From the NCBI GenBank assembly GCA_031285625.1, contig JAITVV010000092.1:124001-188000 (forward strand): DNA of 64,000 nt. The letters are read 5' to 3'. Positions 19,132-62,686 of this stretch are shown in pieces; positions within the stretch are counted from its first letter, which is position 1; each line of letters starts with the position of its first letter. The DNA comes from Prevotella sp. (GTDB lineage Bacteria > Bacteroidota > Bacteroidia > Bacteroidales > Dysgonomonadaceae). The notes under the pieces were generated by a model. The model was not told where the DNA came from. It saw only the letters and a program-made list of their open reading frames with translations, and did no database searches. The translations under genes and the position numbers were made by a program.

Positions 19132-19150
19132 TGCGCAAATGAATTGCGTT
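19132..19150 (-). promoter_or_regulatory. Inverted-repeat operator upstream of the CbrC/WYL operon
   Basis: Read on the minus strand the site is AACGCA-N7-TGCGCA (19150 to 19132), matching the TACGCA-N7-TGCGTA element found before rsr, the Y RNA array, the 62-kb Y RNA and hen1. Unlike those, no clear TAnnTTTG box follows at 9-10 bp (TATTTTTC is the closest), so this copy is weaker. If real, it suggests that the WYL operon is controlled by the same factor and may be autoregulated. Confidence 0.5.
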
Positions 19151-19186
19151 ATATTTTAATATTCTGTAATAGGCTTGCAAAAAAAT

Positions 19187-19216
19187 AAAAAGGGTATCCA
19201 GTCGGATACCCTTTTT
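19187..19216 (-). terminator. Intrinsic terminator of the spondin-lipoprotein gene
   Basis: A perfect 13-bp stem (AAAAAGGGTATCC at 19187-19199 with its complement at 19204-19216) with a 4-base loop lies 20 bp downstream of the lipoprotein stop. It ends in a T-run on either strand. Confidence 0.8.
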
Positions 19217-19236
19217 GAACAACTTATTAAATAACC

Positions 19237-20490
19237 TTATTTAATAGTAACTTTAATCGTGTTAGCTACAGTCGGTATAGGGAAAGTATTATCGACTTTC
19301 TTTATCACAGCATCTTCAACTTGTGATGTACCCCCAAATAAAGACTGACCATTACCGGCACCCGGATACTGGCTAACAGCTGTACCATCATCGAACAGTA
19401 CTGTCTTACTGGTTAAGTCTCCTTTATAGCTAGCCAAAATCGATTCCTCATTAGCATAGAACCAGTCGTTACCATATCCAAACATCGTAACATATGCAAT
19501 CTTATCTCCATCCCATGCCTTGAATTTAACTTCAGCACTTTTTCCCGGGTTAATCGGTTCTGAATTAGCTACGAATAAATATCTTACATTAGACATTCCC
19601 GAAAGAGCGGATTTCAGTTTAGATTCGTCTCCATTTTGAGCAAGTTCTTTAAGACCAATATTAGCATCTTTCTTATCAAGTTGATAAATTGGATTAACAT
19701 CACCTGTATAAACAACTACCAAAACAGGAGAAAGAGTGGTAATAATACCAGTCATCTCACTAACCATATCTCCTAATGGTTGATTATTTCCATTTTCAGC
19801 AAGTGCTGTAAGTTGGGCAGATGATTTTTCGTCTCCTTTGAAGAATGGCTCTCTTTTGACATATTCACCTCCCAACATATTAGACACAACCCATACTCCA
19901 GAAGATAGTGGAGTTTCATTAATTGTACCATTACTGTTATTTTTGATAGTAAGCGTAAATTCTGAAGTAACAGCATCGTAAGTTAAGTTTAGCTTTACAA
20001 GATCTGATGCCGGACGATATAAATTGCCTTGAGCATCCTGCGTCTCTACTTTCTTTATCGTACCATCTTCAGGATCGCCAGGATGAGCGATACCAGATCC
20101 CGGTTGTTTATTTATTCTGGTACCATTGTCCCATAAATGAATTTGTGATGACACATCTCCAGTACGGGCTTTTCCGTCTCCATCAAATAATTCTACTCCC
20201 GGATTTTCAGGTGCAAAAAATAAATCATTGGAGTAACCATACATTGTAGCAAACATCAGACGTTGCCCTTTTCCAGCATGAAATTTGATATCTACCGAGT
20301 TACCCGGAAGTATACCGTCAAATTTACCACTTTGGACAAACTCTTTAAGAACCACTTTATTCTCAAATGTAATAGTGGATTCCAAATCATAATAATCATC
20401 AGCATCGTCATCATCGCTACAAGAGCTGAACGACAAACCAGTAATTAATAGCACTGTTAAAAATGCAATTGATAAAAATTTCTTTTTCAT
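19237..20490 (-). CDS. Lipoprotein with two spondin_N-like domains
   Basis: A 417-residue predicted surface lipoprotein. The signal peptide ends at LSFSSC (Cys at about 24), followed by an Asp-rich stretch (SDDDDADD) typical of surface-exported Bacteroidota lipoproteins. Two related modules follow. The first (about 40-225) has FHAGKGQRLMFATMYGYSNDLFFAPE and SSQIHLWDNGTRINKQPGSG. The second (about 290-417) repeats AWDGDKIAYVTMFGYGNDWFYA and TVLFDDGTAVSQYPGAGNG. These match the spondin_N pattern of a Gly/Asn/Asp-rich, calcium-type adhesion domain. The ligand is unknown. It has its own terminator and a GTCACTTTT motif about 100 bp upstream of the start. Confidence 0.8.
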   Translation of the reverse strand: MKKKFLSIAFLTVLLITGLSFSSCSDDDDADDYYDLESTITFENKVVLKEFVQSGKFDGILPGNSVDIKFHAGKGQRLMFATMYGYSNDLFFAPENPGVELFDGDGKARTGDVSSQIHLWDNGTRINKQPGSGIAHPGDPEDGTIKKVETQDAQGNLYRPASDLVKLNLTYDAVTSEFTLTIKNNSNGTINETPLSSGVWVVSNMLGGEYVKREPFFKGDEKSSAQLTALAENGNNQPLGDMVSEMTGIITTLSPVLVVVYTGDVNPIYQLDKKDANIGLKELAQNGDESKLKSALSGMSNVRYLFVANSEPINPGKSAEVKFKAWDGDKIAYVTMFGYGNDWFYANEESILASYKGDLTSKTVLFDDGTAVSQYPGAGNGQSLFGGTSQVEDAVIKKVDNTFPIPTVANTIKVTIK

Positions 20491-20871
20491 AAGATCTTAA
20501 TTTTTTTTGTGAAATGTATTAAATGGACATTTATTCATACCCTATATAACAAGTGCTATTTTTCAAAAGTTGAGTGATTTTATAGCAAAAAGTGACAAAT
20601 TAACGTTCAATAAGTAATTTTAGAATTAAAACTCGATTTTTTCTTAAAAAACTCATCATTCATAACATATTTTTAAATCAATTTAACACCAATAGAAATT
20701 TACATTAAAGGCTTTTCGAATGATAGATTTGATTTGGCTAAAAAATCTTTATATCTTTGTTCATATTATTTATAACTGTTTATAATTGATGTCATGTAAT
20801 TGTTTAGGATACATACCGGGAGCCTTCCCGGAGATTGGAGACCGCAAGCTGTAACTTGTAGGTCTTAGCTA
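20491..20871. other. Intergenic region between the divergent lipoprotein and RNA ligase genes
   Basis: About 400 bp with no gene. The left half is AT-rich and holds the lipoprotein promoter and a GTCACTTTT motif at 20588-20604. The right half holds a TATCTTTG box at 20752-20759 facing right and a structured leader from 20795 to the ligase start, described separately. Confidence 0.7.
20752..20759 (+). promoter_or_regulatory. TAnnTTTG promoter box of the RNA ligase gene
   Basis: TATCTTTG matches the Bacteroidota -7 consensus. A TTTG lies about 20 bp upstream as a possible -33 element. Transcription would begin near 20766, giving a leader of about 140 nt before the ATG at 20905. Confidence 0.6.
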
Positions 20872-20903
20872 TTGTATTCTATATTCATTAAAAACAATTA
20901 CAT
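20795..20903 (+). promoter_or_regulatory. Structured 5' leader of the RNA ligase mRNA
   Basis: A perfect 12-bp closing stem, ATGTAATTGTTT at 20795-20806 with AAACAATTACAT at 20892-20903, ends one base before the start codon. It encloses a 6-bp hairpin (CCGGGA-GCCT-TCCCGG, 20817-20832) and a second hairpin, GACC...GGTC with inner CAAG/CTTG (20841-20865). This is a three-way-junction layout that would hide the start region. It could be a regulatory leader or an embedded small RNA. I recognise no riboswitch class. Confidence 0.6.
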
Positions 20904-20904
20904 A

Positions 20905-21603
20905 ATGTTATCACAAAAATATGGTCGCACATACCATTTTCCGTTTTCGCCCGGAACTACAAGCGACGACCGAATCAATCATACATACTGGGATGATATC
21001 CAACAGATAAAAACCCTTATTCATACAGAGAAACTGGATGGCGAAAATAACTGTCTTAATCAGTTCGGGGTATTTGCACGTTCGCATGCAGCACCTACAA
21101 CCTCAGCCTGGACAACCCAGCTGCGTGAACGGTGGGAGCTGATAAAACGCGACTTAGGAGAAATCGAACTTTTTGGAGAAAATCTGTATGCAGTGCATTC
21201 TATTGAATATAAACAGATAGAATCCTACTATTACATATTTGCAGTCCGTTGTCTCGATAAATGGTTATCATGGGAAGAGGTAAAATTCTATGCTGCAATG
21301 TTTGATCTTCCTACTGTACCCGAAATTGCAGCTCATTCAGTAAACAATCTCACAAAAGATAGTCTGGAGAAGCAGATTATAGCATTGGCTAATGAACCCA
21401 GCATATTTGGCTCTATTGACACTCAGACTGAAGAAGATTGTACACGGGAAGGCATTGTTACACGAAACGCAGAGGAATATGCAGCAAAAGATTTTGCCCA
21501 CAATGTATTCAAATATGTAAGAAAAGGACATGTAAAAACAGGAGAGCATTGGACCCGTAACTGGAAACGGGCTCAGCTTATTTGGGAAAGGGGAAAAATA
21601 TGA
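20905..21603 (+). CDS. RNA ligase (Rnl-type nucleotidyltransferase)
   Basis: A 232-residue ATP-dependent RNA ligase from the ATG at 20905. The frame opens 11 codons earlier, but the later start sits directly after the leader stem. Ligase motif I is KLDGEN at 43-48, with Lys43 as the adenylated nucleophile. Motif III-like sequence is YYYIFAVR, motif IV is EGIVTRN near 182, and motif V is FKYVRKGHVK near 203. There is no obvious added domain, and its size is close to the core ligase fold. It joins 3'-OH and 5'-phosphate RNA ends in known relatives. The next gene encodes end-healing domains (HD and kinase), so the two genes likely make a heal-and-seal pair. Confidence 0.88.
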   Translation: MLSQKYGRTYHFPFSPGTTSDDRINHTYWDDIQQIKTLIHTEKLDGENNCLNQFGVFARSHAAPTTSAWTTQLRERWELIKRDLGEIELFGENLYAVHSIEYKQIESYYYIFAVRCLDKWLSWEEVKFYAAMFDLPTVPEIAAHSVNNLTKDSLEKQIIALANEPSIFGSIDTQTEEDCTREGIVTRNAEEYAAKDFAHNVFKYVRKGHVKTGEHWTRNWKRAQLIWERGKI

Positions 21604-21714
21604 AGAATGATACACGAATAAACGGAATTATATCCCCCCAAAATTATCTAATATAAAGATCGTAAACTATAAGTCATAAAAGAAAAAGTAACAATAAAAA
21701 ACAAGTAAAATAGT

Positions 21715-21732
21715 GTCACCTTTGTCACTTTT
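21715..21732 (+). promoter_or_regulatory. Tandem GTCACCTTT-GTCACTTTT direct repeat
   Basis: Two 9-bp direct repeats lie about 82 bp before the start of the HD-kinase gene. The same tandem pattern (GTTACTTTT-GTCACTTTT) occurs on the minus strand at 37744-37761, 42408-42425 and 62165-62182. It may be a binding site for a regulator that recognises direct repeats. Confidence 0.4.
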
Positions 21733-21813
21733 TAACATAAATCACATTGATTACTATATGTTTAAATATTTTAAGAAAGGTGTCACTTTTTTATATATGA
21801 TAAAATATAAATT

Positions 21814-22932
21814 ATGGAAAAGATTTGGAAACTGACACAAGATAAAAATTGGGATGCATTGGAAAAGCAATTCCAATGGGTAAATGATATGAGTAATGTA
21901 CCACAACATAAAATACATCACGGAGAAGGTAATGTTGCCAAACATACACAAATGGTATTGGACGAGCTCATCAAACTTCCCCAATACAATACATTATCAG
22001 AGCAAGATAAAGAAATATTATGGGTTAGTGCTTTGTTGCATGATGTGGAAAAACGATCTACATCACAGGACGATGGATTTGGTAAGGTTTCGGCAAACGG
22101 ACATGCGCGCAGAGGAGAATATACAACACGTACTATTCTTTTCAGGGATATCCCTACCCCATTTCATATCCGTGAAAAAATAGCTTCATTGGTACGCTTT
22201 CATGGATTACCATTATGGTTATTAGAAAAAGTAGAGCCGGCAAAAAAAATACATGAAGTATCGTTAAGGCTTGACACCTCACAATTAAAAACGCTTGCAG
22301 AAGCAGATGCAAAAGGAAGAATATGTGAAGATCTGCCTCAATTGATGGAATCATTGGAATTATTTGAATTGTTCTGTAAAGAGCAAGGTTGTTGGGGTAA
22401 AGCTTTAGAATTTGAGACACCCAATGCAAGGTTTCAGTATTTTAACTCGATAGACGGATATATAGGATATGTTCCTTTCGACGATTTTAAGAGTGAAGTC
22501 ACAATACTTTCCGGATTACCGGGCATGGGAAAAGATCATTACATTCAATCCTTAAAAACTGATATTCCGGTAATAAGCCTTGATGCTATCCGCCGCAAAC
22601 ATAAACTAAGCCCGACAGACAGGTCTGCCACAGGGTGGGTAGTACAAACGGCCAAAGAGCAAGCTCGCGAATACCTTCGCAAAGGACAAAATTTTATATG
22701 GAATGCAACTAATATTACACGACTTATGCGGCAGCAACTAGTCGATTTGTTTACATTATACGACGCAAAAGTAAATATCGTTTATCTGGAAAAGCCATAT
22801 GATAAATGGCGTACTCAAAATCGTAATCGTGAGTACCCATTACCTGAAAACGTATTGAATAAGATGCTATATAAATTGGAAATACCTCAACTCGTAGAAG
22901 CACACGACGTGAAATATATTATAGAAGAGTAG
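21814..22932 (+). CDS. HD-domain phosphohydrolase fused to a polynucleotide-kinase-like P-loop domain
   Basis: A 372-residue two-domain protein. The N-terminal HD domain shows metal ligands at His36 (KIHHGEGN), His44 and His76-Asp77 (ALLHDVEKR). The C-terminal half is a P-loop kinase with GLPGMGKDHY near 234-243, VISLDAIRRKHKL as the acceptor-side motif, and an Arg-containing lid (NRNREYPLPENV). In RNA repair such fusions heal ends: the HD domain would remove 2',3'-cyclic or 3'-phosphate and the kinase would add 5'-phosphate. This is inference from family context. It follows the RNA ligase by 210 bp and ends in its own terminator. Confidence 0.88.
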   Translation: MEKIWKLTQDKNWDALEKQFQWVNDMSNVPQHKIHHGEGNVAKHTQMVLDELIKLPQYNTLSEQDKEILWVSALLHDVEKRSTSQDDGFGKVSANGHARRGEYTTRTILFRDIPTPFHIREKIASLVRFHGLPLWLLEKVEPAKKIHEVSLRLDTSQLKTLAEADAKGRICEDLPQLMESLELFELFCKEQGCWGKALEFETPNARFQYFNSIDGYIGYVPFDDFKSEVTILSGLPGMGKDHYIQSLKTDIPVISLDAIRRKHKLSPTDRSATGWVVQTAKEQAREYLRKGQNFIWNATNITRLMRQQLVDLFTLYDAKVNIVYLEKPYDKWRTQNRNREYPLPENVLNKMLYKLEIPQLVEAHDVKYIIEE

Positions 22933-22944
22933 TCAAGAATTACT

Positions 22945-22988
22945 AATATAATTTAAGGTGTTGCTTATGTTTCGCCTTAAATTATATT
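22945..22988 (+). terminator. Terminator after the HD-kinase gene
   Basis: A perfect 14-bp stem (AATATAATTTAAGG at 22945-22958 with its complement at 22975-22988) and a 16-base loop start 12 bp after the stop codon. It is AT-rich but long, and is followed by a short T-rich stretch. Confidence 0.6.
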
Positions 22989-23068
22989 CAATATCCATCT
23001 ATTTTTCGTACGTTTGCTAATATAAGAAATGAACAGGTCTACTTCCTTAACTTTTTATCTAAGCAATA

Positions 23069-26036: not shown

Positions 26037-26073
26037 TACGCAAAAAAACTGCGCAATCACTATATTATATTTG
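26037..26073 (+). promoter_or_regulatory. RNA-repair inverted repeat and -7 box of the hen1 operon
   Basis: TACGCA (26037-26042), a 7-bp spacer and TGCGCA (26050-26055) are followed after 10 bp by TATATTTG (26066-26073), an exact TAnnTTTG box. The ATG of hen1 is 28 bp further on. The repeat occupies the -33 zone, so an activator that takes the place of -33 contacts is likely. The same arrangement precedes rsr and two Y RNA loci. Confidence 0.75.
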
Positions 26074-26101: not shown

Positions 26102-27412
26102 ATGATCTTAAAAATTAGAAGCAAAAACGATTATTTGCTTGATATTCTTTTCAAGAACCCGAACACAGACTATGGATTGTATTTCAAGACTTTAAAGAAT
26201 GGTCAGATAGTAGGAAATGCGGTTAACAAACATTACTATGAGGTAGTTTTTCAGGATACTAAATACAGTTATCTGCCTGAAGAAAGCAACCAGATAGACT
26301 ATCAAAGCTATTGCACACCATTATCTGTATTGCACATATGCAATGAGCTTTTTACACATATACTAAAAAGTAAAGACGAGTTTTCTCAAAAACCAATTAC
26401 GTGGCTTGACATTACACAAGGTAAAGCCGATACAGAAAATTGTATAATTGAAATACCTTCTTTTTATATTGACTCCAACTGGTTTCGAAACGAACGTTTT
26501 CTACCTTCAAAGTATTTTGATGGGGTAAAGGTCGAACAACAAACAAACCGCATCTTTAAGTTGACAATTACTGCAAAATCTGTTTTTGAAGCATTCAATT
26601 TACTGGCTTTGGTCGCATTGTTTACTCATGTTACAAATGAATATAGAATACATACTTATATAGATGATCAATTGGCCCAGAAATATGGACGAATATTGAC
26701 CAATATTGAAAATGTTCCATATTTTGTTTTCTACCTGTTCATTATGAAGGCTGTGAAATCCGAAAGTCAGTTTAAGGAACTGAAACCTTTATTCGAGAAA
26801 TATCTTGAAGGAAACGGATTGATAGCTAATCTGGTATTAAAAGGTACATACCTGCAGCGTATTCATTATATAGTTAATCAGCTAGAACTGGATATACCAA
26901 TTCTGGATATTGGATGTGGAGAATTCACCTACTATAAAAAGATGATGGCTAAGGAATTTAAAGCACCATATTATGCTGTAGATCAAGATAGCCAATTTGA
27001 ACGATTGAGTGAGAATATTGCACGAAGGTATGAGGAAGACAATCTGATATTCTACAATTCATTAGAACAGTTTACATCTGACGAACAGGTAAATATTCTT
27101 TTGACCGAAGTTATTGAGCATAATCCAAGGGAAGAAGCCGATATATTGATAAAGAAGGCTTTATCATTTAATTTCAACAAATTATTAATTACCACCCCAA
27201 ATGTGGAGTTCAATCAATTTTACAATATGGAGAGTGAGTTTCGCCACGACGATCATCAGTTTGAACTTACCCAAAAAGAATTTGAAGAACTAATAGAGAG
27301 TTGTATCTGGAACATGGAAAATCCGGAACAATATAAAGTAGCGTTTTTTCAATTAGGTGATAGTCTAAATGACATTCAGCCAACACAAGGATGTGTAATC
27401 AGAAAACAATAA
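26102..27412 (+). CDS. hen1: Hen1-type 3'-terminal RNA ribose 2'-O-methyltransferase
   Basis: A 436-residue enzyme that methylates the 2'-OH at the repaired junction or 3' end, guarding it against repeated cleavage. The N-terminal 240 residues form the bacterial Hen1 accessory domain. The SAM-dependent domain follows: LDIGCGEFTY near 268, then YAVDQDS, and the metal-binding set unique to Hen1, LLTEVIEHN (Glu336, Glu339, His340) and FRHDDHQFE (His382/His385). It is the first gene of an operon with a Pnkp-type ligase (29 bp downstream) and a kinase-phosphatase. In most bacteria Hen1 partners a single fused Pnkp protein, but here the partners are split. Confidence 0.92.
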   Translation: MILKIRSKNDYLLDILFKNPNTDYGLYFKTLKNGQIVGNAVNKHYYEVVFQDTKYSYLPEESNQIDYQSYCTPLSVLHICNELFTHILKSKDEFSQKPITWLDITQGKADTENCIIEIPSFYIDSNWFRNERFLPSKYFDGVKVEQQTNRIFKLTITAKSVFEAFNLLALVALFTHVTNEYRIHTYIDDQLAQKYGRILTNIENVPYFVFYLFIMKAVKSESQFKELKPLFEKYLEGNGLIANLVLKGTYLQRIHYIVNQLELDIPILDIGCGEFTYYKKMMAKEFKAPYYAVDQDSQFERLSENIARRYEEDNLIFYNSLEQFTSDEQVNILLTEVIEHNPREEADILIKKALSFNFNKLLITTPNVEFNQFYNMESEFRHDDHQFELTQKEFEELIESCIWNMENPEQYKVAFFQLGDSLNDIQPTQGCVIRKQ

Positions 27413-27441: not shown

Positions 27442-28626
27442 ATGGAAGATTTAAAACGATTAAAAAATAGAATTGACTGGTTTTGTGAAAACAAAGTGAA
27501 TGCTTTTTCACCTACCATATCACCGGCTCCAAAATCGATTGAACGAAACGAGATAGAGAGTATATATGAAGGTATCCGTTACTTCTTTGAAAATGGAGTA
27601 CAGGAGATAGTGATACAAAAGAAATATATGGGCTCTTACTGTGATATATATTTAAATAAGAATCTGGAAGATACCTATTTCGTTAGCCGAAACGGGCATA
27701 AAATAGATCATATTGACTTGATTGCAGCAGTAGAAGCCTGTAGAGAATTGCACAGCCGTATCGACTGGACTGATACTGACATGCTCATTATCCAATCGGA
27801 ACTTATGCCTTGGAGTGCTTTAGGTAAAGGACTGATTGAAAATGAATTTGAAGGCTATCTGAATGTACACCAAAACCACTGCAACCATCTGACTCAATCG
27901 GATATATATGAGAAAATCTCAAAAGTAAAGGCTTCTCAACCTTACATAGACTTTATTGAGGATAAGAACAAACTTTCTCTCAAGGAATTGAGAGAAAGGT
28001 ATCCTCATCATATTATCCGCCAGTATGAATCTGTAGCCGATTTTAATATACTGGATATGGAAGTGTATAAAACAAGTATCGATATATACGAAAAACAGAT
28101 CAATCATTTTGGCAAAAAAGATTCTATACACTTCAAGCCGTTCAATATTCTGAAAAAAGTATTTAAAGACGGCTCTGAACTGATAGTGAACGACAACCTA
28201 AGTTATAGAGAAGTAAATAATGATGAATGTCTGAACTTGTACATACGCAACGAAGAGGAATTTAACCAGTCAGTAGAAGAGATATACAAGTGGTTTGTAA
28301 CCCTGGAGCAAAATATGGAAGAAGGTATTGTAATCAAACCCCGTCAGGCGTTTATCAGAAATATGCCTCCTGCATTCAAAGTAAGAAACAATAAGTATCT
28401 TACAATGATATACGGAGTAAATTTTCATGAACAATATGATTACTATCTTTATAAACGTAAGATCGACCGTAAACTGGAATGCTCCATTAATGACTGGATG
28501 ATCAATTGGGAGTTGCTGAAAGTGAAATACAAAGATATCAGCAAAGAAAACTACCTGTTGAAGAACCTTGTTTTCGACCGCATTATGGGAGAGAGGGTTG
28601 AAGCTGGATTGGATATGAGATTATAA
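27442..28626 (+). CDS. Pnkp-type RNA ligase (stand-alone)
   Basis: A 394-residue nucleotidyltransferase resembling the ligase domain of bacterial Pnkp. Motif I is KYMGSY at 61-66 (compare KHMGSR in the fused proteins), making Lys61 the adenylated residue. Motif III-like LIIQSELMPW is near 113. Motif IV is EEGIVIKPRQ near 293, and motif V is FKVRNNKYLTMIYG near 313, the last matching the fused-Pnkp pattern closely. The C-terminal helical module (320-394) is also Pnkp-like. It follows hen1 by 29 bp. It would seal RNA ends after the next gene's product heals them. Confidence 0.85.
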   Translation: MEDLKRLKNRIDWFCENKVNAFSPTISPAPKSIERNEIESIYEGIRYFFENGVQEIVIQKKYMGSYCDIYLNKNLEDTYFVSRNGHKIDHIDLIAAVEACRELHSRIDWTDTDMLIIQSELMPWSALGKGLIENEFEGYLNVHQNHCNHLTQSDIYEKISKVKASQPYIDFIEDKNKLSLKELRERYPHHIIRQYESVADFNILDMEVYKTSIDIYEKQINHFGKKDSIHFKPFNILKKVFKDGSELIVNDNLSYREVNNDECLNLYIRNEEEFNQSVEEIYKWFVTLEQNMEEGIVIKPRQAFIRNMPPAFKVRNNKYLTMIYGVNFHEQYDYYLYKRKIDRKLECSINDWMINWELLKVKYKDISKENYLLKNLVFDRIMGERVEAGLDMRL

Positions 28627-28783: not shown

Positions 28784-29698
28784 ATGAAAAAAAACTCCAA
28801 AATATTAATATTAATCGGTGCTCCCGGATCGGGTAAATCCACTTTCGCAAAGTATTTTATCCGCACCGAAGAAAATTGGATGCGTCTTTGCCGTGATGAT
28901 TTTCGCATGATGCATTTTACATATGCTAATTTATCTCCACGCGATGAAGGTTTGATTACCGACATGCTGGATGTATCTATAGAAGCATTACTAAAGAAAA
29001 GATGTAATGTGCTGATAGATGCTACTCACTGCAGAGCAGAATATCTGAACCACTATATAGAAAAATTTAACCATCTGGCAGATATATCTTTCAAAGTATT
29101 TGAAGCCGATGCCGAAGAAATAGCCGAACGCTGTGATAAACGTAATAAGGAAACGGGCAAATATATTCCGGCGAATGTGCAAAAACGCTATATAAAAGAA
29201 CTGGAAGAGTTGAAAAAGACATTTGATCTCTCAACCCGTCCTAAGATTGATAAAAGAGTAAAAATAGCAGAGCAGAATACAACCCTACCTAAAGCTGTTA
29301 TTTGTGACCTTGACGGAACGCTTGCCCTTATGGATGATCGTAATCCATTTGATGCATCCCATAGTGATAAAGATGAATTAAATAAACCGGTAGCAAATAC
29401 ATTAAAAGCTTTAGCGAAAGATGGTTACCAGATACTTTTGGTTTCAGGTAGGGAAGATAAGTTCAGAGAACCGACTAAGCGTTTTCTTGAAATCCATAAC
29501 ATTCCTTATCATCAACTTTGGATGCGCCAAAGCAAGGATTATAGAAAAGATTCGATAATAAAAAAAGAAATATTCGACGCTGAAATAAAGGATAAATATT
29601 ATATCGATTTAGTACTTGACGACAGAGACCAGGTGGTAGAAATGTGGCGTAAAGAGTTAAAGTTAAATTGCTTTCAGGTGAATTATGGGAATTTTTAA
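28784..29698 (+). CDS. Polynucleotide 5'-kinase / 3'-phosphatase (T4 Pnkp-like)
   Basis: A 304-residue end-healing enzyme, almost the same length as T4 Pnkp (301). The N-terminal kinase has P-loop GAPGSGKST at 12-20, RLCRDDFRMM near 36 (the acceptor-phosphate Asp-Arg pair) and a lid with CDKRNKETGKYIP. The C-terminal HAD phosphatase has CDLDGTLALMDDRNPFD near 174 (nucleophile Asp175, acid Asp177), LLVSGRED near 227 and LVLDDRDQVVEMWR near 281. It adds 5'-phosphate and removes 3'-phosphate or 2',3'-cyclic phosphate so that the upstream ligase can seal. It is the third gene of the hen1 operon, 157 bp after the ligase. Confidence 0.93.
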   Translation: MKKNSKILILIGAPGSGKSTFAKYFIRTEENWMRLCRDDFRMMHFTYANLSPRDEGLITDMLDVSIEALLKKRCNVLIDATHCRAEYLNHYIEKFNHLADISFKVFEADAEEIAERCDKRNKETGKYIPANVQKRYIKELEELKKTFDLSTRPKIDKRVKIAEQNTTLPKAVICDLDGTLALMDDRNPFDASHSDKDELNKPVANTLKALAKDGYQILLVSGREDKFREPTKRFLEIHNIPYHQLWMRQSKDYRKDSIIKKEIFDAEIKDKYYIDLVLDDRDQVVEMWRKELKLNCFQVNYGNF

Positions 29699-36012: not shown

Positions 36013-37527
36013 TTATAGTTCTATTTTTCTTACTTCGTCCAAAGCGTTCCCACCATTATCTATAGCCGATATGATGTCAAATATTTTATCGGACCAACCA
36101 GCTATCAAATACACATCGTTCTGAGTGATATCCAATGGAGTGTTTCCATAACCGGACAAGTCGAACAGATATAGCTTACTGCTTGGTGATATCTTTTTAT
36201 ATTCATTCCATAGATCAGCTATTTTCTTGTCATTTTTGTTGTTCCACAATTGCAAATCAGTAAACATCATGACTTTATCCATCTGTTGTTTTCTCTTTAT
36301 CAGGTCTTCTATTACCAGATAACCGTTGGTTGCATAGCCTACTTCTCCTTCGCGGCGATAGAAAGCATCCACATTAGACAATATACCTTGTGTAGGTACA
36401 TTTATCACCTTCCACTTATCACCGAACATCCCGGTTATGGCATTTTCGCAGCGTGACTTCAATAGCATAGCCAGCATCAAACCTATATCATAACACAGTA
36501 TTTTACTTTTAGCAGATACCGGACGTTGCATAGAGCCTGATACGTCACATGCTATCAGTACACTGGTGTCAGCATCAAAACCTTTTATATTTTCAGCAGA
36601 TACAGCTACGGCTTTTTCCAATGCATCCAGTACACGGCTTGCATATGCAGACTTCACTTTAGATATTTCACGATACGCAGCCAGAAAACGGAATGGCAAT
36701 TGTTTTGAACGACGTACAGCTTCCGGTGAAGCCAACGCACTGCATACTTTTATGATATGCTCTTTCGAAACATTCGATTCCAGTATATTACGCAAGTTAC
36801 GCATCAATGCCATATAGCCTATTTTACCACTATCTATCAGTTCTTCCCATTTGATGCGGAATGCAGTTCCCTTTTCAGCTTCGGAATCAAATTTTATTTG
36901 ACCCAATGCAGAAAGTTCTGTTTCCCAAGTATATGGTGTTTCCAATGTATCATTTACTATCTTGTTGAACAAAGCCTGTTGGTCTTCATCCTTTGCCTTA
37001 GGGTGTACAAGAAATAGTGCATCACGAAGTTTTATTTCCGCATCACGATTATATTTTGCAAACTGATATTCATCAAACCGGTTGAATGCATTCTGCAATC
37101 CGGCTTGTAGCTGTTTCGACAGACGATTTAGTTTCTTTGTGTCTTGTCTTTCATTAGCAAGCTGGTAGTAGGCCAACAGTTCTGTTATCTCATCTGCACG
37201 CTGCACCACTTGCAATACCATTTTGCTTACAGTAGAGTCTCCTCTGTGTATTTTAGCCAACTCTACAGCCAATACCAATGGAATTGAACGCAGATTCATC
37301 TTCTGGCGTGTATATACAGCCAGCTGTGCTACAAATATCGGGTCACATCGTTTTATCAAACCACGCATTGTTTCAACTCGGGCTTGCGCGCTTTCGTAAA
37401 ACTTGTCACTCAATGCAGAGGTAACGGCAGCAGTATACAATTGCCACTCTGGTGATAGACGGTATGCTTGTGCTCCTTCATAATTTACCACCTTGTTTTT
37501 TCCTTTGTTTCTGAAATTGAATTTCAT
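36013..37527 (-). CDS. rsr: Ro60 orthologue Rsr, TROVE-domain protein
   Basis: A 504-residue ring-shaped RNA-binding protein that holds Y RNAs on its outer face and misfolded RNA ends in its central hole. It aids rRNA and RNA decay with exonucleases in other bacteria. The N-terminal HEAT-like TROVE region (about 15-310) shows RGLIKRCDPIFVAQLAVYTRQKMNLRSIPLVLAVELA and YMALMRNLRNIL. The C-terminal VWA domain has a MIDAS motif DVSGSMQ with Asp328. Its length is close to human Ro60 (538). A Y RNA lies in its 3' region, seven more are in the window, and its promoter has the inverted repeat shared with other RNA-repair genes. Confidence 0.96.
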   Translation of the reverse strand: MKFNFRNKGKNKVVNYEGAQAYRLSPEWQLYTAAVTSALSDKFYESAQARVETMRGLIKRCDPIFVAQLAVYTRQKMNLRSIPLVLAVELAKIHRGDSTVSKMVLQVVQRADEITELLAYYQLANERQDTKKLNRLSKQLQAGLQNAFNRFDEYQFAKYNRDAEIKLRDALFLVHPKAKDEDQQALFNKIVNDTLETPYTWETELSALGQIKFDSEAEKGTAFRIKWEELIDSGKIGYMALMRNLRNILESNVSKEHIIKVCSALASPEAVRRSKQLPFRFLAAYREISKVKSAYASRVLDALEKAVAVSAENIKGFDADTSVLIACDVSGSMQRPVSAKSKILCYDIGLMLAMLLKSRCENAITGMFGDKWKVINVPTQGILSNVDAFYRREGEVGYATNGYLVIEDLIKRKQQMDKVMMFTDLQLWNNKNDKKIADLWNEYKKISPSSKLYLFDLSGYGNTPLDITQNDVYLIAGWSDKIFDIISAIDNGGNALDEVRKIEL

Positions 37528-37581: not shown

Positions 37582-37618
37582 CAAAGATTCAAAAACAAGT
37601 ACGCAGCTTTTTTGCGTA
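37582..37618 (-). promoter_or_regulatory. RNA-repair inverted repeat and -7 box of rsr
   Basis: On the minus strand: TACGCA (37618-37613), a 7-bp spacer, TGCGTA (37605-37600), then after 10 bp AATCTTTG (37589-37582), one base off the TAnnTTTG consensus. The spacing equals that at the hen1 promoter. It is the most symmetrical copy of the element. The rsr start lies 55 bp downstream. Confidence 0.78.
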
Positions 37619-40336: not shown

Positions 40337-40466
40337 AAATCAGGGTAATAAGGCGAAAAGGCTGATATAAACCGGCGCTTTACTTTAAGCTACGAAATCG
40401 ATAGGTCTTGCACCTATATAATCCGGATCCCAAATCGAAGAAATCCTCTTCTACGACACCTGAAAT
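40337..40466 (-). ncRNA. Y RNA array unit E (last transcribed)
   Basis: About 130 nt on the minus strand. The 5' motif is GTGTCGTAG-AAG-AGGATTTCTTCG and the 3' motif CCTTTTCGCCTTATTACC, with TCAGG/CCTGA ends paired (40340-40344 and 40459-40463). The interior has a hairpin ATAGGTGCAAGACCTAT. The T-run just beyond its 3' end (CCTGATTTTTTATTTG) could end the array's transcript. It diverges most from the consensus. Confidence 0.75.
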
Positions 40467-40472
40467 TATAAA

Positions 40473-40612
40473 AAACAGAAGTAACAAGCGAAAAGAGCGA
40501 GCGGGGCATGGCTTGCCGGAGTCGAACCGGATAGTCTCGCCGGATTTACGACCTCACTATTCCTCCCCTAAAATTGGTAGCCGAAGTATCTCTCTTCTAC
40601 GACATTCTGTTA
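40473..40612 (-). ncRNA. Y RNA array unit D, with T-arm mimic
   Basis: About 140 nt on the minus strand. The ends AACAGAA and TTCTGTT pair (40605-40611 with 40474-40480). The 5' motif is ATGTCGTAG-AAG-AGAGATACTTCG and the 3' motif CTCTTTTCGCTTGTTACTT. The interior has a T-arm, CCGG-TTCGACT-CCGG (40530-40516), a hallmark of tRNA. The paired ends differ in sequence from the other units but keep pairing, a sign of selection for structure. Confidence 0.85.
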
Positions 40613-40620
40613 TATTTAAT

Positions 40621-40747
40621 CAACAAGGCAACAAACGAACAGAGACTATAATAGCTTGCTCTACCCACTGAGCTACACCCGAAGATGACAGGAATCGAAC
40701 CCGTGACCCAGTTAACCGAAGTAACTCTATTCTACGGCACTTGTTTG
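40621..40747 (-). ncRNA. Y RNA array unit C, permuted tRNA mimic closed by a UUCG loop
   Basis: About 127 nt on the minus strand. The 5' motif is GTGCCGTAG-AAT-AGAGTTACTTCG, and AACAAG/CTTGTT pair at the ends. The interior carries a T-arm (ACGGG-TTCGATT-CCTGT, 40704-40688) followed by CATC-TTCG-GGTG (40687-40676) and then a D-arm (GTAGCTCAGTGGGTAGAGC, 40675-40658). A short acceptor-like stem closed by a UUCG tetraloop thus joins T-arm to D-arm, that is, 3' half before 5' half. Confidence 0.88.
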
Positions 40748-40762
40748 TACTAATTCACAAAT

Positions 40763-40881
40763 AAACAAGGTAACAAGCATAAAGAGCAAACTTTGTCCAA
40801 CCTCGGACGTTGCGGGAGTCGAACCCTTTTCATTAATTGGCGTTTAGCAAACGAAGTAACTCTTTACTACGACACTTGTTA
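40763..40881 (-). ncRNA. Y RNA array unit B, with T-arm mimic
   Basis: About 119 nt on the minus strand. The 5' motif is GTGTCGTAG-TAA-AGAGTTACTTCG and the 3' motif CTCTTTATGCTTGTTACC, with AACAAG/CTTGTT ends. The interior has a T-arm, GGG-TTCGACT-CCC (near 40812-40827), followed by a CAAC-GTCCGAG-GTTG hairpin that takes the place of the acceptor stem. Confidence 0.87.
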
Positions 40882-40889
40882 TATTATTT

Positions 40890-41029
40890 AAACAAGGCAA
40901 CAAACGAGAAAAGCCTTTTTGATCTGGTGTCCTATTTTACTAGACGACTACAACTTACATTGCTGGCTGTTTTTTCAACAGCGTTTCCAGAGTGGATTAC
41001 GAAGTATCTCTTCCCTACGGCACTTGTTT
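40890..41029 (-). ncRNA. Y RNA array unit A (first transcribed)
   Basis: About 140 nt on the minus strand. The 5' motif is GTGCCGTAG-GGA-AGAGATACTTCG and the 3' motif CTTTTCTCGTTTGTTGCC, with AACAAG/CTTGTT ends (41023-41028 and 40891-40896). The interior differs from B-D: it has a GCTGTT-GAAAA-AACAGC hairpin and no TTCGANNCC T-arm, so the tRNA likeness is weak. It lies about 33 bp downstream of the shared promoter. Confidence 0.82.
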
Positions 41030-41062
41030 ATTTATTTCAATGATCTTTTCTTATTTATACTG

Positions 41063-41098
41063 CAAAGTAATAACCTTGATGTGCAATCTTTTTGCGCA
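41063..41098 (-). promoter_or_regulatory. RNA-repair inverted repeat and -7 box of the Y RNA array
   Basis: On the minus strand: TGCGCA (41098-41093), a 7-bp spacer, TGCACA (41085-41080), then after 9 bp TTACTTTG (41070-41063), which fits TAnnTTTG but for its first bases. The layout matches the rsr and hen1 promoters. Its position implies that units A to E are transcribed together. Confidence 0.75.
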
Positions 41099-58495: not shown

Positions 58496-58512
58496 AATGT
58501 TATTGTTTTAGA

Positions 58513-61500
58513 TTAGAATGAAAGATTGAGCCCAAATGTTACAGTTTTCGGACTTGGATAATCTCCGTAATCCATACCCATTGCTCCGGTTTCACTTAGA
58601 GTGCCTTTCGTATTCGGAGGAGTCACACTTACAGACTCAGGATCCATACCCGGATATTTTGTAAAAGTGAAGAAGTTATCCAAAGAAGCAAAAACACGCA
58701 GTCTGGATATTTCAATCTTCCTTGTAAGTGAAGCCGGTATAGTATAGCCAAGTTGTAATTGTTTGATCTTGAAATATGAACCGCTCATAAGCTGTGCCGA
58801 TGATTTGGCAAACTTATCGTCAGTTGGATTCGGATGCGGATATTTTGCTCCCGGACCTTTCACATCCCACGAATCTGTCCAGAATTCTGCCAATTGATTA
58901 GCAGTTGCCGATCCACGCATACTAACCACCATTTTTCCACCTGAGCTACCGCTACCAAAAGCTGTAAAGTCAAATCCTTTGTAAGCTGCGGATATTGTTA
59001 GCCCATAATAAAACTTAGGTATAGCAGAACCTAAGAATACTTTATCAGATTCATTTATTTCACCTTCTCCTGTTTGATCTTTATATAGAGCTTTGCCAGT
59101 ATCAGGATCCGGACCCAGATATTCATAGCCATAATAGCTCCACACCGGTTGTCCTTTGTAGAAATAAACGAATCCATTAGAATATCCATCCTCAATAGGT
59201 TTCTGAACTTCATCCAGTTTTGTAACCTTATTATGCAAAGTTGCCAGATTAGCACTCACACTGTAAGAAAAATCATCTATTTTATCTTGCCAGCCCAGAT
59301 CAAATTCAAATCCTGCGTTATTTACTTTACCCACATTCTTCCACATCTCTGTAGTTCCTGTAGAAAGAGGAGGTGTTATTTTTACTAGCTGCCCAGTTGT
59401 ATTCTTATTATAATAATCGACAGTAAGAGTAAGACGATCATTCAGGAATCTGGCATCAATACCCGCATCTATTTGTTTAGATTCTTCCCAGTTCAACATA
59501 GGGTTTGTCAATGTATTAGACGGAGAGATTGTGTTTACAAGGCTTCCTCCGATAGGATAATAACCCGGAAGGTTCAAAGATGAACTCCACCGATACCCGC
59601 TAAGAACATTTACGTTACCATTTACCCCATATGAAGCACGTACTTTCAGGAAAGATAAAGTTTTAGGACTTATATTCTCCATAAATTTTTCATTACTAAC
59701 AGTCCATCCGGCAGATACAGAAGGGAAATATCCCCAGCGATTATCTTTTGATAGTTTAGAATTGTCAAAAGCATCTGCACGGAAATTAGCTTGTATCATA
59801 TAACGATTATCATATGCATAGCCTATACGTCCGAAGTAACTCATTTTCTTACTTTTACCTACTGATCCGCCTACACCATCATTAGCGCCGCTTGAAGAAT
59901 AGTCCAAATAATGGAAGTTTGGTGCACCATTTATAAATTCGTCTGTGGTACCTCTGGTATAGTTTCTCCAATTAGATGAATATGACATCCCAGCCATCGC
60001 ATATACATTATGCTTGTTGAAAGTCTTATTATAGTTTGCAAAGTTTTCCCATTCATAAAATCTTTCAGTAGCTGTTTCTGCTTCGTAGCTTAGCTTCGAG
60101 CGTGGAGAAATAGAGAAATACACAGGAACTCCATAATATTTATAATCTTCGGATCCTAAACGGTAGCCCAAACGGGTAGTAAATACAAAACCTTTGATCG
60201 GTTTGAAATTCAATGATGTTACCCCTCTGATATTAAAATCCTTATGTTTACTGTTCTGACTATAATACCATGTCATAGGATTTGTATTATCAGCATTGTA
60301 TTTAGGAACAGCAGCATAATCTCCGTTCTCATTTTTCATAAGCATATCATCACCTTTAGACGTAATCAGGTCTTTCATATATTGTGGCAAATTATCCTTA
60401 TCATAGAAAAGAGGAGTCAACGGATCATAGTAATAAGCAGAGTTAAATCCTTGTTTATTAATTCCATCCCCTACTCTTGAGTATTCTGAGTTTTCGATTG
60501 AATTATTCGAAGAGAATTCGAGCCACGGCTTAATATTATAAGTAGCGTTCAGTTGGAAAGAAAGACGATTTATATAATCTTTATCTCCATAGTACATACC
60601 ATCATTTTTCATATAAGATACTGATGAGTATAGAGTACCATTATCATTTCCTCCTTCAAAACCTACTGTATGACGCTGGAAAGAGCCATTATCTCCATAG
60701 AGAGCTTCGCTCCAATCTGTATCTGTAACGCCATCCCAGTCATTCACCAAAGAGTTACCGGCTGCCTTGTTATAGTCAACATATTGTTGAGCATTCATCA
60801 TTTTGGGCTTGCGGGCCAATGAAGTAATCCCGTAGTTAAAATCATAGAAGATTTTGCTTTCCCCTTTTGTTCCGCTTTTGGTTGTGATAAGTACCACTCC
60901 ATTACCGGCTTCTACTCCATAGATAGCTGCAGATGCACCATCTTTAAGTATCTCCATCGATTTTATGTTATTTGGATCCAGATAGGCAATATCTTTTACT
61001 TTAAGACCATCGACCACATAAAGAGGTTCTGAATTTCCTGAAGAGTTGGAGCTTATACCGCGTATACGAACAGCAGGACTGGTTCCCGGTGCGGATGAAC
61101 CACCCATGACTTGTACACCGGCTGCTTTTCCCTGAAGGGCTTGTTGTACGTTTTCAACAGAACGTGATCCAAGAGCATCTCCCTTTACCGAAGTTATGGC
61201 TCCTGTTACATCGCTTTTCTTTTGTACACCGTAACCAATCACGACTACATCATCTAGCATTTTTGTATCTTCTTCAAGAATAATGTGAAGAGATGTTTGA
61301 TTCCCTACAGATATAAGTTGAGGGCTAAATCCCAAAAGCGAGACTTTAATTTTTTGACTAGACGATACATTTTCCAATGTAAATGTACCATCATCTAAGG
61401 TTAGAGTTCCCTGGGTAGTTCCCTCGATCACCACAGTTGCTCCAATAATAGGTTCTCCCGTATTATCGACAACTGTTCCTGTCAGATTCCTCGTTTGCGC

Positions 61501-61581
61501 AACAGTCTGGCTGCCTGCAAACGGAATTGCAAGAATCATAATCAGTGTTATTAAAGTCAATTTCAATAAGCTTTGTTTCAT
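58513..61581 (-). CDS. SusC/RagA-family TonB-dependent glycan transporter
   Basis: A 1022-residue outer-membrane transporter. After the signal peptide (about 1-29) there is a carboxypeptidase-like domain (about 33-112, NLTGTVVDNTGEPIIGATVVIEGTTQG), a TonB-box/plug (DDVVVIGYGVQKKSDVTGAIT near 113, then GKAAGVQVMGGSSAPGTSPAVRIRGISS) and a beta barrel ending in VTFGLNLSF. No STN domain is present, so it does not look like a signalling transporter for an ECF/FecR pair. It imports oligosaccharides presented by SusD. Confidence 0.95.
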   Translation of the reverse strand: MKQSLLKLTLITLIMILAIPFAGSQTVAQTRNLTGTVVDNTGEPIIGATVVIEGTTQGTLTLDDGTFTLENVSSSQKIKVSLLGFSPQLISVGNQTSLHIILEEDTKMLDDVVVIGYGVQKKSDVTGAITSVKGDALGSRSVENVQQALQGKAAGVQVMGGSSAPGTSPAVRIRGISSNSSGNSEPLYVVDGLKVKDIAYLDPNNIKSMEILKDGASAAIYGVEAGNGVVLITTKSGTKGESKIFYDFNYGITSLARKPKMMNAQQYVDYNKAAGNSLVNDWDGVTDTDWSEALYGDNGSFQRHTVGFEGGNDNGTLYSSVSYMKNDGMYYGDKDYINRLSFQLNATYNIKPWLEFSSNNSIENSEYSRVGDGINKQGFNSAYYYDPLTPLFYDKDNLPQYMKDLITSKGDDMLMKNENGDYAAVPKYNADNTNPMTWYYSQNSKHKDFNIRGVTSLNFKPIKGFVFTTRLGYRLGSEDYKYYGVPVYFSISPRSKLSYEAETATERFYEWENFANYNKTFNKHNVYAMAGMSYSSNWRNYTRGTTDEFINGAPNFHYLDYSSSGANDGVGGSVGKSKKMSYFGRIGYAYDNRYMIQANFRADAFDNSKLSKDNRWGYFPSVSAGWTVSNEKFMENISPKTLSFLKVRASYGVNGNVNVLSGYRWSSSLNLPGYYPIGGSLVNTISPSNTLTNPMLNWEESKQIDAGIDARFLNDRLTLTVDYYNKNTTGQLVKITPPLSTGTTEMWKNVGKVNNAGFEFDLGWQDKIDDFSYSVSANLATLHNKVTKLDEVQKPIEDGYSNGFVYFYKGQPVWSYYGYEYLGPDPDTGKALYKDQTGEGEINESDKVFLGSAIPKFYYGLTISAAYKGFDFTAFGSGSSGGKMVVSMRGSATANQLAEFWTDSWDVKGPGAKYPHPNPTDDKFAKSSAQLMSGSYFKIKQLQLGYTIPASLTRKIEISRLRVFASLDNFFTFTKYPGMDPESVSVTPPNTKGTLSETGAMGMDYGDYPSPKTVTFGLNLSF

Positions 61582-61931
61582 AATCTTAAAAAAATTAATA
61601 ATTTATTGTTTAGTAGTTCATTGTATCCGGCGTCTATCACTCTCTCGTCAACCGGATGAGGTCGTAGTATGGATTTCTTAGTTACATTCATAAAGATTTA
61701 TTGGTTAGTATTAGGTGAATTATTTCATAGCATAAGATATTTTAGTGTTATCATCTTATGAACGACTTAGGATTAAAATACCACTAAAACATTTTTCAAT
61801 TTCGTGAAAATAAGGGCTTAAAGAATTAAAAGGCCGGCTGATTAAATAAATAATCAATCGACCTGTATTTTAGAAGTTAATCTTACAATAACTTATTCTA
61901 TTTTAGCTTTTTGTAAAACTCTGTAAGTTTA
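61582..61931. other. susC upstream region
   Basis: About 350 bp with no gene. It has an AT-rich leader with a possible hairpin near 61835-61870 (AGGCCGGCTGATTA with TAATCAATCGACCT, imperfect). The susC promoter must lie here, but I cannot place a confident TAnnTTTG box. Confidence 0.5.
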
Positions 61932-62144
61932 TCAACTGAATGATGCATCTTTGGATATAAAAGAGATCAGCTTAACAGTAAGACCCTCAAGAGCAGCAGC
62001 CTCTATTTTATGATGACCATCCAACAAACAGTTGGCAAATCCCCAATGTGATACAATTCCATCTTTAGGAGTTGTAAAACTTAGTCTCGATTGTGATTTT
62101 CTGACTTCGAGATGTTTGTGATCTATATTACTTTCCATATTCAA
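61932..62144 (-). pseudogene. Small ORF, remnant with ParB-like DGHHK motif
   Basis: A 70-residue frame. The part VSHWGFANCLLDGHHKIEAAALEGLTVKLISFI resembles the strand-helix around the DGHHR motif of ParB/sulfiredoxin-like nuclease folds, but the rest of any such domain is absent. It may be a fragment left by rearrangement. A small functional protein cannot be excluded. Confidence 0.4.
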
Positions 62145-62164
62145 TCTTATTTACCATACATTAA

Positions 62165-62182
62165 AAAAGTGACAAAAGTAAC
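62165..62182 (-). promoter_or_regulatory. Tandem GTTACTTTT-GTCACTTTT repeat beyond the tRNA-like RNA
   Basis: The same 9-bp direct repeat as at 37744 and 42408. A TGTTACTTTT block near 62203-62212 is complementary to AAAAGTAACA, so on the minus strand it could form a hairpin followed by a T-run. It could thus serve as a terminator of the ncRNA transcript or as a regulator site. Confidence 0.4.
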
Positions 62183-62259
62183 AACTTATACATATATTTT
62201 ATCTGTTACTTTTTCTTTCTGTCCCATTTATATTAGACAATCTTAATTATATATTCTTG

Positions 62260-62456
62260 TACTCCTAATGAGATTCGAACTCATATTCCCTTTCGGGCAG
62301 TACGGCTCTAAATACGCTTCCCTACTTTTCAGTTAAGAATTTCGGTGCATCTGTAAAATCTACCCATAACAACGCGCAGCTATTACGGGGCTATCCATAC
62401 ACTCTATGGTAAGTCTAAATTTTGCCACAGGCTTTTCCTTTTAAGCTATAGGAGCA
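62260..62456 (-). ncRNA. tRNA-like RNA with a large insertion in the anticodon loop
   Basis: About 197 nt on the minus strand. The 7-bp acceptor pairs GCTCCTA (62455-62449) with TAGGAGT (62267-62261). TA follows as positions 8-9, then a D-arm GCTT-AAAAGGAA-AAGC. A T-arm ATGAG-TTCGAAT-CTCAT lies at 62284-62268 and a variable-arm-like CCC-GAAA-GGG precedes it. TGTGG...CCGTA can form the anticodon stem, but about 115 nt replace the anticodon loop, with internal hairpins (CCATA...TATGG; CCCGTAA...TTATGGG). No CCA is encoded. It is not a standard tRNA or tmRNA. It starts 6 nt after the 62-kb Y RNA. Confidence 0.7.
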
Positions 62457-62461
62457 AATTA

Positions 62462-62614
62462 TAAACGAGGTAACAGGCGAAAAGAGACTGTTTATCCTGC
62501 TCTACCACTGAGCTACACTCCCGTTAATTTGTATTACTGAGAGAGTGAGGGGACTCGAACCCCCGACCCGGGCATTAAAAGTGCGAAGTAACTCTAATCT
62601 ACGACACTCGTTTT
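62462..62614 (-). ncRNA. Y RNA with a complete, circularly permuted tRNA mimic
   Basis: About 153 nt on the minus strand. The ends AAACGAG/CTCGTTT pair (62607-62613 with 62463-62469). The 5' motif is GTGTCGTAG-ATT-AGAGTTACTTCG and the 3' motif CTCTTTTCGCCTGTTACC. Between them, in order, are a T-arm (GGGGG-TTCGAGT-CCCCT), CACTCTC (62547-62541), an 18-nt linker, GGGAGTG (62522-62516) and a D-arm (TAGCTCAGTGGTAGAGCA). CACTCTC and GGGAGTG pair over all seven positions with one G-U, so the tRNA 3' half precedes its 5' half. Confidence 0.88.
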
Positions 62615-62650
62615 ATGCTTTGTATATGAATGATCGCTTGTTTGATGATA

Positions 62651-62686
62651 CAAAGTAAAAGCACCGGAGCGCAGTGTTTTTGCGTA
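62651..62686 (-). promoter_or_regulatory. RNA-repair inverted repeat and -7 box of the 62-kb Y RNA
   Basis: On the minus strand: TACGCA (62686-62681), a 7-bp spacer, TGCGCT (62673-62668), then after 9 bp TTACTTTG (62658-62651). The -7 box is the same as in the Y RNA array promoter and the spacing is equal. The RNA's terminal stem starts about 37 bp downstream. Confidence 0.75.

Follow-up and report, generated by a model that had tools for sequence, protein, structure and literature searches.

A stretch of 64,000 nucleotides from a Prevotella sp. genome (Dysgonomonadaceae in GTDB; assembly GCA_031285625.1, contig JAITVV010000092.1, positions 124,001 to 188,000), called the window at its full length, carries a 19-bp palindrome, TRCGCA-N7-TGCGYW, before genes for RNA repair, for the Ro homolog Rsr and for Y-like RNAs. 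We propose that a dimer of a WYL-WCX protein encoded in the same window binds this palindrome, replaces the -33 contact missing from these promoters and thus activates an RNA-damage regulon, a reading to which we assign a probability of about 0.74. The sequence directly shows the element with its geometry and targets, and shows that it is linked to the WYL gene and co-occurs with it; from these we infer binding, dimer formation, activation, autorepression, a ligand, and RNA damage as the trigger.

Results

Copies of the element in the window and its genome

The features on which the argument rests are these:

17061..18083, minus strand: WYL-WCX regulator with an N-terminal winged helix-turn-helix (wHTH), proposed regulator of the element (Pfam, predicted structure)
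26037..26055, plus strand: element TACGCA-AAAAAAC-TGCGCA, upstream of hen1 (pattern search)
26066..26073, plus strand: -7 box TATATTTG, gap of 10 from the 26037 element, exact TAnnTTTG
26102..27412, plus strand: Hen1 (Hen1_N), RNA 3'-end methyltransferase (Pfam)
27442-28626: ligase part of Pnkp, after hen1 (Pfam PNKP ligase)
28784-29698: Pnkp kinase-phosphatase, after the Pnkp ligase part (Pfam)
36013..37527, minus strand: Rsr (TROVE / Ro60 homolog; Pfam TROVE)
37582..37589, minus strand: -7 box AATCTTTG, gap of 10 from the 37600 element
37600..37618, minus strand: element TACGCA-AAAAAGC-TGCGTA, upstream of rsr (pattern search)
40340..41031, minus strand: array of five Y-like RNA units (sequence and fold comparison)
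41063..41070, minus strand: -7 box TTACTTTG, gap of 9 from the 41080 element
41080..41098, minus strand: element TGCGCA-AAAAGAT-TGCACA, upstream of the Y-like RNA array (looser pattern)
62467..62615, minus strand: Y-like RNA unit with closing stem, T-arm, acceptor-like stem and D-arm in permuted order
62651..62658, minus strand: -7 box TTACTTTG, gap of 9 from the 62668 element
62668..62686, minus strand: element TACGCA-AAAACAC-TGCGCT, upstream of the Y-like RNA (pattern search)

Four places in the window match TRCGCA-N7-TGCGYW (19132, 26037, 37600 and 62668), where dinucleotide shuffles lead one to expect 0.01. The whole genome (4.84 Mb in 96 contigs, 94% complete) holds the identical four places, all inside the window; the reversed pattern occurs at none in the 4.84 Mb, and a scan of spacers from 0 to 15 gave matches in the window with spacer 7 only. 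Such a genome-wide scan had been called for by an earlier, sequence-only reading of this stretch, and it returned four exact-pattern sites, all in the RNA-repair island, rather than many unrelated matches. The same reading had counted five copies with an N7 spacer, which is correct for 19132, 26037, 37600 and 62668; the copy at 41080 falls outside the consensus on one side, one half-site being degenerate (TGCACA), and is matched by the looser TRYGCA-N7-TGCRYA. A sixth copy, of promoter type and also with one degenerate half-site, lies outside the window at C91:50603 (L077:8604). The looser pattern without mismatch has three further places in the genome (contigs C14, C52 and C85), all lacking the promoter pattern. 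The search patterns were designed after sites had been seen in the window and in some genomes, and made no use of the WYL gene.

Housekeeping promoters of Bacteroidota consist of a -33 TTTG, a gap of 19-21 bp and a -7 TAnnTTTG. A TAnnTTTG-type box had been claimed 9-10 bp downstream of the element, and a TTTG does lie at that gap for 26037, 37600, 41080 and 62668; the exact TAnnTTTG is confined to 26037. Counted as element plus -7 box, the genome has five promoter-type copies: those of hen1, rsr, the Y-like array, the 62-kb Y-like RNA and C91:50603. The last directly precedes the gene of a 443-aa protein that matches nothing in Pfam, NCBIfam or PADLOC at the thresholds used; its counterpart in a family genome (G011) is 94% identical and also has the element.

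A fixed, one-sided promoter geometry across Bacteroidota

Is this arrangement peculiar to one genome? We scanned species genomes with a profile of the WYL protein and took the best 80 of at least 573 confirmed relatives, each with flanks of up to 10 kb; five loci repeating genomes already used (L179, L180, L181, L182 and L193) were dropped, leaving 75 of the 80 for counts. The earlier reading had called the control Bacteroidota-specific. The element was searched for inside the phylum; the 80 best WYL relatives from the scan of species genomes all bear Bacteroidota names, bar two titled only 'bacterium'. The element with its -7 box was found at 99 sites in 61 of the 80 loci, versus 1 site in 1 locus of reversed sequence; the strict palindrome, with no -7 box condition, occurs at 96 sites in 60 of the 75 loci and at none in the reversed control. 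With spacers scanned from 0 to 15, N7 accounts for those 96 matches and all other spacers together for 5. A TTTG lies 13 bp downstream of the palindrome in 68 cases and 14 bp downstream in 19, together 87 of 96, and no palindrome has it on both sides. In 86 of these 87 the A-tract is on the side away from the promoter, the remaining case being a tie. In the WYL-picked loci the consensus is TRCGCA-AAAA-G-A-Y-TGCGYA, followed after 9-10 bp by a TAnCTTTG-like box.

Our main counts come from these WYL-picked loci, since a second set was chosen for holding the element and is therefore biased. In that set the element precedes Rsr, Hen1, RlaP, RtcB, a WYL gene and RNA arrays without an open reading frame (ORF). 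Thirty-eight loci were fetched for pattern matches: L077-L115 except L079, a repeat of the window, with neighbouring stretches in a few cases. Of these, 27 have a site, and 11 have none at the score used (L078, L084, L095, L096, L101, L105, L106, L111, L112, L113 and L115).

At none of the 95 target promoters of the WYL-picked loci does a TTTG stand 17-23 bp before the -7 box, the -33 position, so that the -33/-7 pair of Bacteroidota promoters is not found on the target side. The sequence-only reading had supposed an activator in place of -33 contacts, and the fixed one-sided spacing together with the missing -33 TTTG in 95 of 95 target promoters supports it. Could the WYL protein rather be a repressor, its dimer blocking RNA polymerase at the RNA-repair promoters until a ligand releases it? 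Palindromic operators near promoters are typical of repressors. A steric block, however, needs neither fixed distance nor polarity, yet both are kept here; and as no target promoter has the -33 TTTG, these promoters would be weak without help. We consider repression unlikely, and return to it with the structure of the protein.

Fixed spacing to a -7-like box would also be seen if the element were itself part of an alternative sigma factor promoter, but its upstream part has dyad symmetry, which sets it apart from sigma -35 elements, its -7 box is of the housekeeping TAnnTTTG kind, and the WYL gene tracks the element (sigma genes were not searched); to this explanation we give very little credence. 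A stretch of about 37 kb holds four of the genome's five promoter-type copies, as it would if one promoter had been copied within the island by recombination, with no common control. One copy, however, is on another contig, and unrelated genes in many lineages of the phylum have the same geometry, which leaves such copying with next to no likelihood.

Targets behind the element

Which genes stand behind an element to which a WYL activator would bind? Among 95 sites in the 75 loci, 24 precede RtcB, 14 Rsr, 6 a WYL gene, 5 RlaP and 2 a T4-type RNA ligase; 3 precede one unknown family, 7 single other ORFs (including a protein of poly(A)/CCA polymerase type and a vWA protein), 4 reach contig ends and 30 have no nearby ORF. 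All 28 proteins of the RtcB cluster, taken over all loci, match PF01139. A T-loop motif lies within 500 nt in 19 of the 30 ORF-less sites, versus 12% of 3000 random windows. ARAGORN, run on 13 ORF-less sites, placed nine tRNA genes behind one and one or two behind three others. The first is L226:3024-3823 (a Bacteroidaceae metagenome-assembled genome, Horse_feces36), where a one-mismatch element is followed by tRNA genes in the order Ser, Arg, Ser, Gln, Phe, Tyr, Gln, His, Glu, as if the response also included spare tRNAs. Rsr follows the element at 22 sites, the window included (L181 repeats L086), and Hen1 does so in four family genomes, of which G005, G011 and G090 share the hen1 arrangement of the window. 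The earlier proposal of a shared RNA-repair and Ro/Y element thus extends to WYL-picked loci, which have it before RtcB, Rsr, RlaP, RNA ligase and Y-like or tRNA genes.

Linkage of the element to the WYL gene

Within the window the regulator gene belongs to an operon with these further features:

16100-16801: NUDIX-NrtR protein, WYL operon (Pfam)
18503..19096, minus strand: UPF0167 (CbrC-like) protein, encoded first in the WYL operon (Pfam)
19132..19150, minus strand: element overlapping the -33 box of the CbrC-WYL operon (pattern search), a probable autoregulatory operator

In 49 of the 80 loci, themselves the best 80 of at least 573, a site is present no more than 400 bp upstream of the WYL start; among the 56 WYL-upstream entries listed, the distance is 36-51 bp in 30 and the orientation is away from WYL in 48. 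Across 395 phylum genomes the promoter pattern is present in 36 of 44 with the WYL gene and in 13 of 351 without it (Fisher 2e-32; relatedness not corrected), and 74 of the 88 matches in WYL-positive phylum genomes lie within 50 kb of that gene. In 101 family genomes the figures are 11 of 14 versus 11 of 87 (relatedness not corrected), and two or more matches per genome occur in 9 of the 14 versus 0 of the 87. A close Rsr is found in 5 of the 101; all five are among the 14 WYL-positive genomes and all five have the element upstream. WYL orthologs were called at E below 1e-100 for the family and at 1.2e-79 and below for the phylum, cut-offs set after the lists had been viewed; 4 family genomes and 11 phylum genomes whose WYL match was weaker went into the negative group, and the phylum pattern occurs in 0 of those 11. 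The WYL-negative phylum genomes hold 15 matches in 13 of 351, 11 of them with a single match; five from one genus (G616, G636, G652, G780 and G845) have one near-identical matching sequence in common, which suggests that it is coding sequence. Adjacency and presence or absence across genomes thus both fit the WYL protein as the candidate regulator that had been proposed.

Might another regulator bind the element, such as the NUDIX-NrtR protein, with WYL only a fellow member of the regulon? NrtR-like genes lie near some sites (L086, L107 and L171), and published work treats NUDIX and WYL factors as alternative sensors (PMC9503650). It is, however, the WYL gene that adjoins the element in 49 of the 80 WYL-picked loci and follows it across genomes, while NrtR is present in few of the mapped loci (no cross-genome search for NrtR was made), and we regard this alternative as very improbable.

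A putative autoregulatory operator at 19132

The copy at 19132 had been described as a fifth copy preceding the WYL operon; it does stand there, but its geometry is unlike that of the other four. Read toward the operon, it has a TTTG at 19136-19139 inside the element, and TATTTTTG at 19107-19114 lies 21 bp beyond that TTTG and starts 17 bp past the element: an ordinary -33/-7 promoter with its -33 in the operator. We dropped 19132 as one more activated promoter, given this -33-overlapping geometry. A similar design occurs on the side facing WYL in many relatives; it is closely kept in a second Dysgonomonas genome and looser in a third. To judge from this layout, 19132 is probably an autoregulatory, autorepressing operator.

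The WYL-picked loci contain 48 outward-facing sites within 300 bp of WYL. In 41 of the 48 a WYL-facing TTTG occupies the equivalent position in the element, and 27 of the 48 also have a TAnnTTT 13-18 bp past it. With the -33 TTTG on the WYL-facing side of the element, one site can therefore serve two promoters, presumably activating outward and occluding inward. Six loci have a site facing WYL at an activating distance of 8-9 bp; in L207 this site and the outward palindrome are one sequence read on opposite strands, and L216, L226, L248 and L253 also have an outward site.

The WYL protein

The protein of 340 aa matches Pfam WYL and WCX, and its predicted structure (pLDDT 81, pTM 0.52) shows wHTH-like helices and strands, a helical region, WYL and WCX in that order. 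The wHTH is the most conserved part, with 28 of 85 residues invariant in 32 orthologs. The nearest solved fold is DriD (E about 1e-15, with TM-scores below 0.5 over the full length), then PafBC, followed by BrxR and CapW. The last two are WYL repressors, and their presence among the structural neighbours speaks for repression; that the activators DriD and PafBC rank first speaks against it.

Evidence that weighs against the proposed regulon

Several results do not sit well with WYL-dependent activation of RNA repair. On the target side, 7 of the 95 sites precede single other ORFs, 3 the unknown family, and 11 have neither an ORF nor a T-loop motif. In the genome of the window, the roughly 1.2 kb before the RtcB gene holds no element, and on that stretch RtcB was rejected as a member of the regulon; the RlaP gene of the window (38846) has no site at the score used. 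The loose pattern with one mismatch has 104 places in the genome versus 47 in the control, so weak sites elsewhere are possible. Among WYL-positive genomes the pattern is missing from 8 of 44 in the phylum and from 3 of 14 in the family; two of these three have a variant site beside WYL, and G014 has none there. Fifteen of the 75 WYL loci lack the strict palindrome. In Bacteroides congonensis, xylanisolvens and acidifaciens (L188, L189 and L191) the WYL protein is 70% identical and no element lies nearby: up to 10 kb on each side, with three mismatches allowed, gave no candidate with a -7 box. In such loci the targets may be further off, or the site may be different.

WYL paralogs 34-38% identical (L175, L176 and L177) lie near a TGTGCA or TRTGCA N7 dyad with an equally spaced -7 box; WYL subfamilies may differ in their operator code, and as judged from these distant-paralog dyads the motif class is wider than an RNA-repair regulon. 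Finally, a published survey predicts negative regulation by the WYL factors of ADP-ribose systems, which have gene types in common with the WYL operon of the window (PMC9503650), a prediction in favour of repression.

Y-like and tRNA-like RNAs

Would the RNAs behind the element qualify as Ro-linked Y RNAs? The array units resemble one another and the 62-kb RNA at both ends. Several array units have tRNA-like T-arm sequences, 40618-40748 has the full permuted module, and in units of this first type the T-arm half comes before the D-arm half. Fourteen first-type units, two of them in the window, share 30 consensus pairs that form a closing stem, an inner stem, a T-arm, an acceptor-like stem and a D-arm. 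Of 419 cells 96.2% are paired, and 15 pairs and 48 cells are changed on both sides, versus 8.9 pairs and 14.3 cells in shuffled controls (0 of 500 shuffles as high, in shuffles that do not preserve relatedness) and at most 4 pairs and 9 cells when the alignment was slid. The 62-kb unit is cut short at its 3' end, and the closing stem is missing from its own minimum-energy fold. The long closing stem, the tRNA-like module and the link to rsr, which has the same promoter element, are those of bacterial Y RNAs. YrlA, an Ro-linked RNA encoded with rsr, likewise has a tRNA-like module (PMC7790460); for the RNAs of the window, Rsr binding is a candidate property. They lie in multi-unit arrays with the T-arm half first, an order that may set them apart from YrlA, and at gathering thresholds Rfam finds nothing in the window.

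At about 62280-62470 on the minus strand the window further has a tRNA-like RNA with tRNA-like ends and a long insert between its D-arm and T-arm sequences; ARAGORN called no tRNA in the window. Insert-bearing tRNA-like RNAs also follow an element or a Y-like unit in L083, L093, L098 and L108, with a distant version at L198:8592. In L098:7784, a Dysgonomonas genome, an apparent inverted-repeat insertion separates the element from the Y-like RNA.

The surrounding island

The WYL region (8556-18083, minus strand) encodes NUDIX-NrtR, two NADAR, Macro and KptA proteins by Pfam, and some of its ORFs are presumably ADP-ribosylglycohydrolases. Other Pfam matches in the window are to RlaP, an RNA ligase and a kinase that also matches HD weakly. 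For Hen1, Pnkp and Rsr the NCBIfam matches fell below cut-offs, and PADLOC matched only WYL, Cas3c and PbeA in the window. By its predicted gene content, the region is an RNA-repair and ADP-ribose island.

Discussion

How might such a system work? A dimer of the WYL-WCX protein would bind the 19-bp palindrome, which ends 9-10 bp short of the -7 box, and recruit RNA polymerase to promoters without a -33 TTTG, replacing that contact. In the genome of the window this would switch on Hen1-Pnkp, Rsr, the Y-like RNAs and the 443-aa protein, and in relatives RtcB, RlaP, RNA ligase or spare tRNAs. The signal is probably a nucleic acid produced by damage and sensed by the WYL domain. As the A-tract read in reverse is often the -33 TTTG of the regulator's promoter, the same binding would limit synthesis of the regulator.

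According to a preprint (PMC12340889), DriD of Caulobacter is a homodimer that answers single-stranded DNA and binds a pseudo-palindromic site of about 20 bp overlapping -35; it controls DNA-damage genes, and it occupies a bidirectional promoter next to the driD gene without regulating that gene. Our system resembles DriD (8tp8, 9pfv) in its wHTH-WYL-WCX architecture, in a dyad of about 20 bp near -35/-33 (here 19 bp, and in 87 of 96 cases separated from the -7 box by 9-10 bp) and in the bidirectional promoter beside the WYL gene. It differs in sequence (16-17% identity in full-length alignments), in its RNA-repair and Ro/Y targets, and in a promoter of the Bacteroidota kind. By analogy of site, geometry and fold, it may work as DriD does. 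PafBC of mycobacteria is a WYL activator that replaces -35 contacts and has a nucleic-acid ligand (PMC11804915); it is a heterodimer, with a single helix-turn-helix on a -26 motif, DNA binding only with RNA polymerase and a DNA-damage regulon, unlike the system of the window. Ours is a single protein rather than a PafB-PafC heterodimer or fused pair, and the two other WYL proteins found in the genome are encoded elsewhere.

The sequence-only reading had set the window apart from sigma54/RtcR control, in agreement with the failure to find RtcR (PF06956) in this genome (94% complete), while the same search found it in the E. coli control. The -7 boxes of the window are of the housekeeping kind, again unlike RtcR and sigma54. 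RtcR itself, a CARF sensor and sigma54 enhancer-binding protein, answers damaged tRNA and controls rsr, Y RNAs and rtcBA together (PMC7790460); rsr and Y RNAs under one control would be common to both systems. Because of the targets, and because RtcR answers damaged tRNA, our guess by analogy is an RNA-derived ligand. TrcR of Anabaena provides a case of one regulator for rtcB and a tRNA operon (PMC10272220), but it is a cyanobacterial ribbon-helix-helix repressor, unlike the WYL protein. The literature searched, with incomplete coverage, contained no description of the element or of a WYL-controlled RNA-repair regulon; what it did describe were WYL activators that serve in DNA damage, control of RNA repair by RtcR, and WYL factors encoded close to ADP-ribose systems.

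Could this be an RNA counterpart of the SOS response? We put at slightly better than even odds a dedicated response, present in much of the phylum, in which one WYL family senses an RNA- or tRNA-derived ligand, activates by a single, hardly varying promoter layout the end-repair and ligation enzymes (RtcB, Hen1-Pnkp, RlaP and the T4-type ligase), Ro, arrays of Y RNAs that mimic tRNA and, in some genomes, spare tRNAs, and uses the same site to restrain its own gene. Bacterial RNA-repair control is best known for RtcR with sigma54, and the WYL system would be a second, unrelated control across a large phylum. If true, it would place ligases, Ro/Y particles and tRNA supply in one regulon, extend WYL activators from DNA to RNA damage, and turn scattered genes into a testable stress response. 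The promoter sequence may serve as a search key to new members, such as the 443-aa protein and the ORF-less RNAs, and the set includes bench-testable species, for example Flavobacterium johnsoniae.

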